Shown: piece after piece, positions 38,601 to 41,975 of the stretch
How the letters are laid out: each line of letters starts with the position of its first letter
Position numbering within the stretch: position 1 is the first letter of the stretch
DNA from: Williamsia maris
Lineage (GTDB): Bacteria; Actinomycetota; Actinomycetes; Mycobacteriales; Mycobacteriaceae
Direction: 5' to 3'
DNA length: 64,000 nucleotides
Assembly: GCF_024171815.1 (NCBI RefSeq)
Contig: NZ_JAMTCJ010000002.1
Location: 1,302,001 to 1,366,000 of the forward strand
Made by a program: the position numbers and the translations under genes
Notes under the pieces: generated by a model
What the model was told of the DNA's origin: nothing
What the model saw: the letters and a program-made list of their open reading frames with translations, nothing else
Database searches by the model: none

Positions 38601-39815
38601 TTGGTCAAAGGCAACGGCGCGTCCGATGCTCGGACCGCCAAGGTGATCCAGCTGTACGCCTCGCCCCCCGAGGCCCCCAGTCGCGAGCAGGTCCGCCGCC
38701 GCCATCCTTCGCAGCAGAAGTCAACGGAGCGAACCGATTCCGGCATCGAACGGACTCCGACGACGCCGCGCAGGCCCCGCGCGCCCCGACCCGCGCCGCC
38801 CCGGGCCGGCCATCCCAACCCCGGCGGAGCCGGCCATCCCAACACCGATGACTTCCTCGCCGATCCGGCTGACGTCACGCCGATCAGCAAGGACATGGCG
38901 ACCCGTCTCGACGCCGCCGGTCTGCCGGTCCGGCCCACCGGGTCGCCGCTGTTCAGCCTGAGCAGTCTGCGTTCGACCCTGGCTGATTCGGTGATCGCCG
39001 GCGCCGGATATCTGCGCGAGCGGCTGACGGGCGACTACGAGGTCGACGACTTCGGCTTCGATCAGCACTTCACCGAGAACGTCTTCCTGCCCGCGATGCG
39101 GGTGTTGTTCGACAAGTGGTTCCGCGTCGAGGTCACCGGCATCGAGAACATCCCGGCCGAGGGTGGCGCGCTGCTGGTCGCCAACCACGCGGGCACGTTG
39201 CCCATCGACGCGCTGATGACGTCGGTGGCTGTCCACGACCACCACCCCCAGCATCGTTTCCTGCGGATCCTCGCCGCCGACCTCGCGTTCGAGTCGCCGT
39301 TCGTCGGACAGCTGGCCCGCCGGACCGGGTCGACCCTCGCCTGCACCGCCGACGCCGAGCGGTTGCTGCGCGGCGGCGAACTGACCGGCGTCTGGCCGGA
39401 GGGCTTCAAGGGCGTCGGCAAGCTGTACAAGGATCGCTACAAGCTGCAGCGGTTCGGTCGCGGCGGCTTCGTCACCACCGCCCTGCGTGCAGCCGTGCCG
39501 ATCGTCCCGGTGTCCATCGTGGGGTCGGAGGAGATCTACCCGATGCTCAGCGACCTCAAGCCGCTGGCGCGACTGGTCGGTCTGCCCTACATCCCGGTCA
39601 CGCCGACGTTCCCGGCACTCGGACCGCTCGGCCTGGTCCCGCTGCCGTCGAAGTGGCACATCCACTTCGGCAAGCCGATCGAGACCAGCCAGTACGACGA
39701 GCAGGCCGCCGACGACCCGATGGTCGTCTTCGACCTGACCGACCACGTCCGCGAAGAGATCCAGCAGACACTGTTCCGCATGCTCAGTCGCCGAGGGTCC
39801 GTCTACTTCGGCTAG
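38601..39815 (+). CDS. Lysophospholipid acyltransferase-like protein (Rv0502 family, PlsC domain)
   Basis: A 404-residue protein. The first 130 residues are Pro/Arg-rich and probably disordered (repeat GHPNPGGAGHPN). The PlsC-type domain is about 170-380 with GALLVANHAGTLPIDALM (catalytic His-Asp region) and GVWPEGFKGVGK (second motif). It should acylate a lipid acceptor. No ATG or GTG occurs at a sensible place; I use TTG 38601, with GGAGAGG eleven bases upstream and TACACT (38526-38531) as a possible -10. Its stop is two bases from the DUF559 cassette's left repeat. Confidence 0.8.
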   Translation: MVKGNGASDARTAKVIQLYASPPEAPSREQVRRRHPSQQKSTERTDSGIERTPTTPRRPRAPRPAPPRAGHPNPGGAGHPNTDDFLADPADVTPISKDMATRLDAAGLPVRPTGSPLFSLSSLRSTLADSVIAGAGYLRERLTGDYEVDDFGFDQHFTENVFLPAMRVLFDKWFRVEVTGIENIPAEGGALLVANHAGTLPIDALMTSVAVHDHHPQHRFLRILAADLAFESPFVGQLARRTGSTLACTADAERLLRGGELTGVWPEGFKGVGKLYKDRYKLQRFGRGGFVTTALRAAVPIVPVSIVGSEEIYPMLSDLKPLARLVGLPYIPVTPTFPALGPLGLVPLPSKWHIHFGKPIETSQYDEQAADDPMVVFDLTDHVREEIQQTLFRMLSRRGSVYFG

Positions 39816-39817
39816 TT

Positions 39818-39895
39818 CGGTCCACAAACCACGCCGCTCAGCGTCGTTGGCTGCACTGTGCGGACAACGCTCGTCAGCCGTGTGGGTTGTGGCGG
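39818..39895. repeat. Left 78-base terminal repeat of the DUF559 cassette
   Basis: Begins CGGTCCACAAACCACG and ends GTGGGTTGTGGCGG. It aligns without gaps to the reverse complement of 40751-40828, matching at 53 of 78 positions by my count, so the two copies are inverted. It is itself near-palindromic (CCACAAACCAC with GTGGGTTGTGG). It starts two bases after the upstream gene's stop and includes the last seven codons of the DUF559 gene. Confidence 0.7.
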
Positions 39896-40701
39896 GGTGA
39901 TCGGTGGCGGTTGGTTCTGACCAACTCCAGGATCACGTGCTCGGACTCGCCCCACCGGTGAACGACGTCGGTATAGGTGAATCGCACGGGAACGTAGCCG
40001 CGCCGGATCGCTTCCCGATCACGTCGTCGGTCCTCGGAGAATTTTGCCCGGCCGGTGTGAAACTCTTCGCCGTCGACTTCGACGATCAGCCGTTCGCCGA
40101 CCAGAAGATCGACCCAGCCGACACCCGAGATCTGCACCTGGGGTGTGACCGCGATGCGCCGACCACGAAGCCGCAGGCGGACCATGGTCTCGGTGCCGGA
40201 TTGCGCGCGTCGGTCGCACTTGTCGAGCAGGCGCCGAGCAGAGGTCGGCGCGTCCGACAAGGTGTCGGCGAGTTCCTGCAACGTCATCAGATGCTGGTTC
40301 AGAATCGAGTCGCACACCACGACGAGCCCCTCGTCGTCCAGGCATCGCACTGCGTGCCGGAGCGCCACCGCCACGTCGTCGACCGGCCCGGCCTCGACCT
40401 CGTATCCGCCGTGTTGTGAGCAGAACGGGCCCGGGAGTCGGCGGTTCTCGGAGTTCGCACGAACGTGGATGTTCGTGTCGTGTTCCGGCACCCATACGCC
40501 GTGCAGCCGAAGGGCCGACAGACAGCTCAGTACCCCGCCACGCGCGACCGCGGCAGCGACGGAGGGGTCGGCGAATCGCGTTGCGTACCAGCCCCGGCGG
40601 AGACGGATGAGGTCTCCCTTCGTCACCGCCGACCTCACCTGGGCCTGTGTGTGACCCCGATCGATCAGAGCCCGCCGGCTGTAGACCCCCGCATCTCTCA
40701 T
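39874..40701 (-). CDS. AbiEi-like / DUF559 putative nuclease
   Basis: A 275-residue protein. The N-terminal part (VYSRRALIDRGHTQAQVRSA, RLRRGWYAT, LSCLSALRLHGVWV) is the winged-helix type of AbiEi antitoxin-like proteins. The C-terminal part has a very-short-patch-repair-like PD-(D/E)xK core (GVGWVDLLVG, LIVEVDGEEFH) followed by RDREAIRRGYVPVRFTY, typical of DUF559. It probably cuts or nicks DNA; the target is unknown. ATG 40701 has CAGACT six bases upstream; GTG 40731 is an alternative. The gene's end lies inside the left repeat, and the right repeat stands just before its start. Confidence 0.78.
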   Translation of the reverse strand: MRDAGVYSRRALIDRGHTQAQVRSAVTKGDLIRLRRGWYATRFADPSVAAAVARGGVLSCLSALRLHGVWVPEHDTNIHVRANSENRRLPGPFCSQHGGYEVEAGPVDDVAVALRHAVRCLDDEGLVVVCDSILNQHLMTLQELADTLSDAPTSARRLLDKCDRRAQSGTETMVRLRLRGRRIAVTPQVQISGVGWVDLLVGERLIVEVDGEEFHTGRAKFSEDRRRDREAIRRGYVPVRFTYTDVVHRWGESEHVILELVRTNRHRSPRHNPHG

Positions 40702-40750
40702 CGGGTCAGTCTGCGGTTGCCGGGTGGCCACATCCCGTCAGATGTGGAGT

Positions 40751-40828
40751 CATCCACAACCCACGTCGCTGCGCCGCTATCTGTGCATGACGCAGCCGAC
40801 AGCGCTCAGCGACGTGGGTTGTGTACCG
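40751..40828. repeat. Right 78-base terminal repeat of the DUF559 cassette
   Basis: Inverted partner of 39818-39895. CACAACCCACGTCGCTG (40755-40771) and its exact complement (40808-40824) form a 17-base stem around a 36-base loop, so it can fold by itself. It ends seven bases before the serB1 stop and could end serB1 transcription. Confidence 0.75.
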
Positions 40829-40835
40829 CGCGAAG

Positions 40836-41975
40836 TCAGTCGCGGAACTTGCGGACCGCGGCGACCGCGCCGCCACCGGCGGCACCGAGCAGGACCGCGG
40901 TGGGCAGACCGATCTTCGCGGCCTTGCGGGCGGTGCGGTAGTCGCGGATCTCCCAGCCACGCACCCTGGCGACATCGCGTAGGTCGGCATCGGGGTTGAT
41001 CGCCACGGCGGTACCGCACAGCGACAGCATCGGGACATCGTTGTGGGAATCGGAGTACGCCGTACATCGCTTGAGGTTCAGCCCCTCGCGAATGGCCAAC
41101 GTGCGCACCGCGTGTGCCTTGCCGAGCCCGTGCAGGATGTCGCCGACGAGGCGGCCGGTGAACTTCCCGTCGACGCTCTCTGCGACCGTCCCGAGGGCAC
41201 CGGTCAGGCCGAGGCGGTCGGCGATGGTCTGCGCGAGTTCGACCGGCGTCGCGGTGACGAGCCAGACCTGCTGGCCGGCGTCGAGGTGCATCTGCGCGAG
41301 GGTGCGCGTACCCGGCCAGATCTTGTCGGCGATGGTCTCGTCGAAGATCTCCTCGCCGAGCCGGACGAGTTCCTCGGTGGAGCGACCGGCGATGAACGAC
41401 AGCGCCTTCTCCCGACCCGAGGCGACGTCGTCGGCGTTCTCCCGTCCGGTCACGCGGAACTTGGCCTGCGCCCAGATGAACTCGGCCATGTCGCGGTAGG
41501 AGAAATAGTCGCGGGCGGCGAGGCCGCGGGCGAAATGCACGATCGACGCGCCCTGGACCAGCGTGTTGTCGACGTCGAAGAATGCGGCCGCGGTCAGGTC
41601 CGGCGGGACGTCGGTGGGGGCGCCGGGTTCGTCGTGCTCGCCGTCGTCGAGGCGGGTGCGTTCCTGCAGCGTCGCGTAGGCGGCCTGGGCGCTGGCCTCA
41701 CCGGCCAGGGAGTGGCGGAGTTCGGCGGCGGACTGACGGAACCGGCCGACCCGACCCGATCCGGTGGAGCGACCCGCTCGCGAGGTGATCCAGTTGCTGA
41801 CGGTCCCGCCGGCGTCACGCTCGTCCGACGGATCGGAGCTCGTGTCGGGGTCGGGTCCGGCCAGGACCTCCTCGGAATCGGCGACACCACCGCTCTGTGC
41901 GGTGCCCGGGTCGACGGCGTCGTCGGTGTCGCCGTGCTCCGGGTTCGGGCCGGTCTCGCCGGGCGTATCGGTCAC
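40836..41975 (-). CDS. serB1: HAD-IB phosphatase, phosphoserine phosphatase-like
   Basis: A 379-residue protein. Residues 1-135 are acidic and probably disordered. The HAD domain (about 140-360) has motif [14 protein letters not shown], motif II in [11 protein letters not shown], and motif [14 protein letters not shown]-terminal [18 protein letters not shown] is a possible membrane anchor. SerB1-type proteins dephosphorylate phosphoserine or related phosphate esters. GTG 41975 has AGGAGG seven bases upstream, which decides the start against a longer open frame. It keeps the Rv0505c position. Confidence 0.87.

Follow-up and report, generated by a model that had tools for sequence, protein, structure and literature searches.

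In the REP/RAYT systems (REPtrons and REPINs), one enzyme gene lies between palindromes, cognate copies of which occur elsewhere in the genome, mostly in intergenic positions, and several site types go with several enzyme variants. Extracts of the published accounts describe RAYTs as HUH/tyrosine transposases that act on single strands and are mostly encoded by a single-copy gene, and REPs as 20-50 nt long, marked by a GTAG-type tag and often present in hundreds of copies (PMC8266576, PMC3733652, PMC3116915). The IS200/IS605 elements are also compact and, in extracts of two accounts, carry palindromic structures at both ends (PMC8266576, PMC6006769). Among nucleases, the EDxHD homing endonucleases such as I-Bth0305I have the catalytic fold of Vsr, and for I-Bth0305I a review extract gives dimerisation on a target that spans nearly 60 bp, which is very long (PMC3943268). 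A fourth system to be compared is the type IV toxin-antitoxin system AbiE with its AbiEi antitoxin fold. In the part of the open-licence PMC literature that was searched, we found no publication linking DUF559 or AbiEi-type nucleases to flanking palindromes.

Here, we describe a locus of Williamsia maris in which a gene of this nuclease type lies between two matching palindromic sites. The window, that is the whole stretch of DNA analysed, comprises 64,000 nucleotides, and its positions are used for the features of the locus:

39822-39892, left site: 71-nt palindrome of the CCACAA...TTGTGG type, one of the 12 places matched by the CCACAA pattern given below
39874-40731, minus strand: nuclease gene, an ORF of 285 aa with a GTG start
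39916-40209, minus strand: C-terminal half of the protein (about residues 175-272), Vsr/EDxHD endonuclease domain
40210-40731, minus strand: N-terminal half of the protein (about residues 1-174), AbiEi-antitoxin-like module, with the boundary set by us
40754-40824, right site: 71-nt palindrome that agrees with the reverse complement of the left site at 48 of 71 positions and with its direct sequence at 44 of 71

An alternative ATG start nine codons into the ORF is equally possible, and the stop codon of the gene falls within the left palindrome. The upstream neighbour is an acyltransferase-domain gene (Pfam, 2e-7) with its stop at 39813-39815, and the convergent downstream neighbour is a HAD-IB hydrolase gene (TIGR01490, 5.6e-55; serB1 is the name given by the earlier reader) with its stop at 40836-40838. 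Six bases separate the first stop from the left core and 11 bases the right core from the second stop, so the fit of the unit between two convergent stops, as claimed in the original prediction, is right. The copy in the window thus has a whole site at each end and interrupts neither a host gene nor an intron. The prediction had also been made from two 78-mers (39818-39895 and 40751-40828) said to match in inverted orientation at 53 positions; this count is exact and was the best among the ungapped registers tried, with only 16-18 matches in three neighbouring registers; random 78-mer pairs from the window matched at 22.2 positions on average and never at more than 40 (4000 draws). The two repeats had been said to be able to fold on themselves, in agreement with the partial self-complementarity of the left (50 of 71 positions) and right (46 of 71) sites. 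DNA folding gave z-scores of -5.4 on the plus and -6.2 on the minus strand for the right site, and of -2.7 on the plus but -1.1 on the minus strand for the left site.

From sequence comparisons, we consider it likely that the locus is a one-gene mobile element in which an AbiEi/Vsr-type nuclease gene has a 71-bp palindromic site on each side. The minimal nuclease with cognate palindromes in a REPtron-like layout that had been predicted finds support in four kinds of observation, namely matching ends, solo sites, full, solo and empty alleles, and the co-variation of sites with proteins. The layout is REPtron-like and the enzyme chemistry perhaps homing-endonuclease-like, and a defining feature of each of these systems is absent here. 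In contrast to RAYTs, the window enzyme combines an AbiEi-like part with the Vsr/EDxHD fold and lacks the features of an HUH tyrosine transposase, and the nuclease gene occurs at several places in a genome; in contrast to REPs, the sites are 71 nt long, have CTGA or CCACAA ends and no GTAG-type tag, and number at most 13 per genome by the CTGA pattern. The EDxHD homing endonucleases share the catalytic fold and the conserved E, D, H and D with the window protein, whereas the AbiEi-like N-terminal half is particular to the latter, no intron or intein is involved, and the gene lies between two intact putative sites instead of interrupting its site. The likeness to AbiE is confined to the N-terminal half (6y8q, PADLOC), to which a nuclease domain is attached; no AbiEii toxin gene adjoins the window gene, both neighbours being other genes that converge on the element. 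IS200/IS605 elements have distinct left and right ends, whereas two copies of one long site are found here, and the enzyme is unrelated. There is a fair chance that the element merits a class of its own.

The assignment of the protein is drawn from profile and structure comparisons. Pfam matched MTES_1575 (2.7e-6) and AbiEi_4 (0.0012) below their cut-offs and DUF559 (3.2e-4) slightly above its own, the NCBIfam search of the 285-aa protein gave no match, and PADLOC matched AbiEi models only, on the N-terminal third (AbiEi, 5.6e-7 over residues 11-79). A profile of 37 relatives matched PDB entries 3hrl (1.6e-6, an endonuclease-like protein) and 3r3p (0.0013, a mobile intron protein), and 13 positions are invariant among these relatives, including E181, D208, E218, H225, D234 and R237; E181, D208, H225 and D234 are presumably the letters that name the EDxHD motif. 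The AlphaFold model of the window protein is a confident one, with a mean pLDDT of 91.3. Its top Foldseek match, and the sole one at 0.001 or better, was the AbiEi antitoxin 6y8q (E 5e-4, 173 columns, TM by target 0.44), followed by 3r3p, the I-Bth0305I catalytic domain, which is the best fold match of the catalytic domain (TM by target 0.75, E 0.0047), and further down by 3hrl (0.027) and Vsr (0.049); the E-values for I-Bth0305I and Vsr are modest. The description of the protein as a DNA reader plus a nuclease is well based; the AbiEi-like N-terminal half is probably the DNA-binding module, and the protein would cut DNA. dN/dS was 0.145-0.352 in nine of ten chosen orthologue pairs and 0.59 in the tenth, which has few changes. 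Existing annotation, for instance that of Tsukamurella, labels proteins of this kind as hypothetical or as stray AbiEi antitoxins.

The gene family is present in 33 of 121 genomes (family search, E 1e-20 or better). The search for related loci yielded 54 loci with organism names, to which 40 further places were added; 134 loci were examined, 132 with a match, 125 of them with enough flank and 108 non-redundant. The inverted match between the two flanks exceeded the 95% point of a swapped-locus null at 64 of these 108 loci and the 99% point at 54, and with either orientation allowed the numbers rose to 69 and 59, which leaves 39 loci with no end match beyond the 95% null. Because each site is itself palindromic, direct and inverted matches are hard to distinguish: for the 59 loci with an end-match score of at least 16, the match was clearly direct in 24, clearly inverted in 16 and undecided in 19. 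Folding energy separated end hairpins poorly from controls in GC-rich DNA and was replaced by a base-pair score. With the latter, a palindrome score of at least 16 was reached by 66 of 216 end segments (31 upstream, 35 downstream) compared with 2 of 631 controls from farther flanks. At the level of loci, 49 of 108 have such a palindrome on either side, 17 on both sides and 59 at neither end, and four of the 31 strong upstream palindromes (L003, L004, L139 and L146) are host terminators and do not belong to the element. Rfam gave two matches far under the gathering scores and nothing real.

Across 3078 locus pairs that share no flank homology, loci with more similar proteins also have more similar sites (Mantel r 0.286, 0 of 999 permutations), and a site score of at least 14 was reached by 5 of the 27 closest but 0 of the 550 most distant pairs; the site is therefore tied more closely to the enzyme than to the location. 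Paralogues in the same genome often bear differing sites, which suggests that each enzyme may be paired with a private site. When the two halves of the protein were set against parts of the site, the outer arms correlated a little more closely with the N-terminal half (partial r 0.29 compared with 0.17) and the centre equally with both, in a test that is weak as a whole since the pairs are not independent. The gene copies within the window's genome (G000) are 45-51% identical and thus old, which means that movement would be rare.

The architecture of the site was derived from 51 distinct CTGA-type 71-mers. At the varying positions of the outer 13 pairs, complementarity was 0.78-0.98 compared with 0.34-0.52 when right halves were swapped between sites; it fell to 0.35-0.75 (swapped, 0.24-0.66) at positions 14-27 and was back up at 0.80-0.96 (swapped, 0.50-0.92) at pairs 28-32, with the centre unpaired. 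The dyad therefore consists of an outer arm of about 13 nt, a weakly paired middle, an inner arm and a short unpaired centre. Ten sites of the CCACAA type showed almost no effect of swapping (0.607 compared with 0.574). The fixed length and the weakly paired middle are what the binding of a two-fold-symmetric protein dimer to duplex DNA would require, and are compatible with an imperfect hairpin too. A duplex target accounts for the palindrome no less well than a folded hairpin does. The long target on which I-Bth0305I dimerises makes the dimer reading plausible.

Sites of this kind also occur without the gene. BLAST of the window's own genome with the right 77-mer gave no second copy; patterns with fixed arms later found copies. 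The pattern GATCGTCC N28-56 GGACGATC matched in five of eight Williamsia genomes (reversed control, none of eight), and 15 of its 18 forward matches were exactly 63 nt long, which corresponds to the 71-mer minus four bases per end; of the other three, two were shorter and terminator-like (48 and 47 nt), and the third, 64 nt long, lay in a coding frame. Sites of the type seen in the window, CCACAAMC N50-58 GKTTGTGG with an allowed span of 66-74 nt, were found at 12 places in six of the eight genomes, and all 12 were exactly 71 nt long (the reversed control gave one match, in G000, and thus in one of eight genomes). Four of these places are at the element of the window locus, and six others were examined and lack such a gene within 1.5 kb. 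Because its outermost pair is mutated, the right site at 40754-40824 is missed by this pattern.

The pattern CTGARAWC N44-66 GWTYTCAG (60-82 nt allowed) matched in 24 of 121 genomes and its reversed control in one. Among 64 matches listed, 54 were 71 nt long, six were 70 nt and four had other lengths; these places cover G000, G002, G003, G019, G044, G064, G080, G093, G095, G108 and G120; G003 is covered in part, and G005, G006 and G007 are outside this count. Thirteen genomes, these 11 plus G005 and G006, have a 70-71-nt match among the matches listed or fetched, and all 13 are gene-positive, whereas the gene family is present in 33 of the whole set of 121 (p 5.8e-9, uncorrected for kinship). 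The other 11 matched genomes gave different lengths where shown, and eight of them are without the gene. Conversely, 20 of the 33 gene-positive genomes have no CTGA-type 70-71-mer among the matches listed, the pattern covering one arm type. No genome had more than 13 matches of the CTGA or three of the CCACAA pattern.

We classified a site as solo if tblastn with ten family members (E 1e-4) detected no gene within 1.1-1.5 kb on each side. After removal of duplicates, of L184/L213 with its N run and of three false matches, 55 solo loci remained, some of which are the same place in sister species; ten loci of other lengths (L192, L193, L196-L198 and L200-L204) were judged to be chance matches or terminators and stand outside this count. 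The sites lie near gene ends: with neighbours called by our coding-bias rule, which yielded none at 11 of the 55 loci, 20 of 43 site-facing neighbours had their stop within 15 nt (median 17), and at five solo sites the CTGA end appears to supply the TGA stop of the neighbour. One solo site (L255) is in a coding-like frame. L184 (G005:C6, about 17256) has a solo site, then the N run and then a second, partial copy, which is possibly an assembly break at the palindrome.

Comparison of related genomes showed full, solo and empty states of the same place. Beside an amidohydrolase gene (Pfam) in nine genomes of one genus, G064 and G121 carry the full element, G095 and G080 a single 71-mer (with the outer pairs changed in G080), and G120, G108, G122, G017 and G046 lack the element; the best palindrome score in the 260 nt after the gene was 16.6-21.8 in the four genomes with a site and 8.0-8.8 in the five without. 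Identity between the two full genes, those of G064 and G121, is 81.5%. Ranked by the identity of the host gene to that of G095, the species follow in the order G080 (98%), G121 (95%), G064 (91%) and G120 (70%). With the full copies in G064 and G121 and the solo sites in the closest pair, the shorter history is that the full element came first and collapsed later. A second such site lies next to a serine/threonine dehydratase gene: here the full element is present in G064 and a solo site in G080, G095 and G121, and G120 has a full element with a 77% identical gene in a partly shared context. Downstream of L5/S14-type ribosomal genes (S14 assigned by eye), five of eight Williamsia genomes are filled and three have neither gene nor site, with best palindrome scores of 7.8-10.0 at the three empty places. 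Among the fillings, the gene of G006 has an in-frame stop and the upstream site of G000 is a remnant. This remnant (G000:C3, L169) is short and looks as though the palindrome had lost its centre. At a tmRNA gene, G000 carries the element, whereas G002 and G007 lack it and have a far neighbour that is different or only 37% alike. Five other full/solo pairs were rejected as allelic since their site families differ (L136/L195, L134/L239, L103/L219, L103/L227 and L160/L229, with L227 judged via its close match to L219). The collections contain a single genome for each species; neither transposition events nor target duplications nor excision products were observed in them, and empty and filled sites are too diverged for any short direct target duplication to show.

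At the sequence level, then, the gene and its matching pair of sites form a widespread unit, solo sites keep a strict length, and a single locus occurs in full, solo and empty states; that the nuclease binds and cuts the site and that the element spreads and collapses is what we infer. A dimer of the nuclease would bind the dyad and cut the DNA there, its AbiEi-like halves placed on the outer arms and its Vsr/EDxHD halves close to the centre. Cutting could feed the spread of the gene via copying or homing between cognate sites, and recombination between the two ends, often direct repeats, could delete the gene and leave one site, comparable to LTR elements and solo LTRs. The intact site kept at both ends, a putative target of the element's own nuclease, counts against this model. 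We are slightly more inclined to doubt than to accept the wider proposal of an autonomous element class of Actinobacteria in which a Vsr/EDxHD nuclease with an AbiEi-like reader moves itself together with miniature 71-bp sites, private to each paralogue, and leaves solo sites. If true, it would provide a testable family of paired enzymes and targets, would mean that a REP-like architecture arose with an unrelated nuclease, and would offer a naturally occurring series of nucleases for long sites, with targets that are evident from the genome sequence beside the gene.

Several of these observations bear on a different order of events, in which the solo 71-bp site is older and is the target, and the gene was copied in by recombination at the site, which was thereby duplicated. 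The fold of the catalytic half, nearest to that of the homing endonuclease I-Bth0305I, and the length of the target of the I-Bth0305I dimer would suit such homing, as would the 15 loci with an end-match score of at least 40, where the direct match was higher in 12, about equal in one and lower than the inverted match in two. It is, however, an unlikely history, because at the amidohydrolase gene a change from full to solo takes fewer steps than two gains, because full copies retain intact sites that a plain homing gene would cut, and because places without the 71-mer in some relatives are occupied in others.

The same junction was compared in eight Williamsia genomes, including that of the window. 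An orthologue is present in six of them, the window's own counted, with identities of 83% in G005, 63% in G003, 59-60% in G001, 54-57% in G004 and 55-57% in G007, where the gene has lost its C-terminal part and the left site is missing as well. In G002 the gap holds a distantly related nuclease instead (28% by tblastn; L025, of the L007/L010 type and 49% identical to L010), with other palindromes that match at the two ends by eye, and in G006 it is a short spacer with neither an orthologue nor another subfamily. The gap was thus emptied or re-occupied, and the window copy itself was inherited mostly vertically. Vertical conservation in all relatives and restriction of the repeats to this one DUF559 gene, either of which would have spoken against the original prediction, were not what we found, since the junction differs between relatives and repeats occur elsewhere near such genes.

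This pattern of inheritance, with orthologues in six of eight species, one of them truncated, could also be that of a host gene that does not move and regulates itself, in other words a stand-alone regulator of the AbiEi-like kind with the palindromes as operators or bidirectional terminators. The resemblance of the N-terminal half to an AbiEi antitoxin and the position of sites at the 3′ ends of genes (the 20 of 43 neighbouring stops within 15 nt) would agree with this. Nevertheless, sites of the same length with the same arms stand alone at 55 other loci, autoregulation needs no downstream site, no promoter- or terminator-like pattern was found in 39700-40950 by a scan for sigma-70-type promoters and T-tailed terminators, and the gap of G002 is filled by a different subfamily with different palindromes; we regard this explanation as improbable, and slightly more so than insertion of the gene into an older site. 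That random hairpins at gene ends happen to lie next to a common nuclease gene without any functional link is very improbable given the fixed length of 71 nt, the matching ends and the swapped controls, although hairpins are plentiful in GC-rich genomes and the folding-energy score separated ends from controls poorly.

Layouts like that of the mobile element proposed here were also seen in Tsukamurella, where they were set against the deposited annotation of genes. At L279, a 72-nt palindrome starts 6 nt past a DUF2470 gene and an 80-nt palindrome ends 7 nt before a convergent MFS gene; at L281, the downstream palindrome is 71 nt long, and L280 has no clear palindrome pair. These three loci lie on Tsukamurella tyrosinosolvens records labelled as plasmids (NZ_LR134454.1, NZ_LR134466.1 and NZ_LR134468.1) that hold chromosome-like genes, for example for prephenate dehydratase, and may be chromosome fragments. 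Because the adjoining genes look chromosomal, these matches are not taken as evidence of carriage on plasmids. Two weak matches were found in unannotated phage-labelled records.

Other DUF559-type genes of the window's genome are bordered by structures of a different kind. At L008 (1314-1388 and 2309-2413) and L011 (1279-1377 and 2336-2435), arrays of 21-bp tandem repeats replace the palindrome on both sides of the gene, in opposite orientation on each side, and an array like that of L011 is also present at L183 (2615-2714) in G003. L005 (1413-1457 and 2360-2396) and L010 (1384-1441 and 2415-2472) are more distant DUF559/AbiEi-type genes with shorter, nearly perfect palindromes that are nearly the same at both ends.
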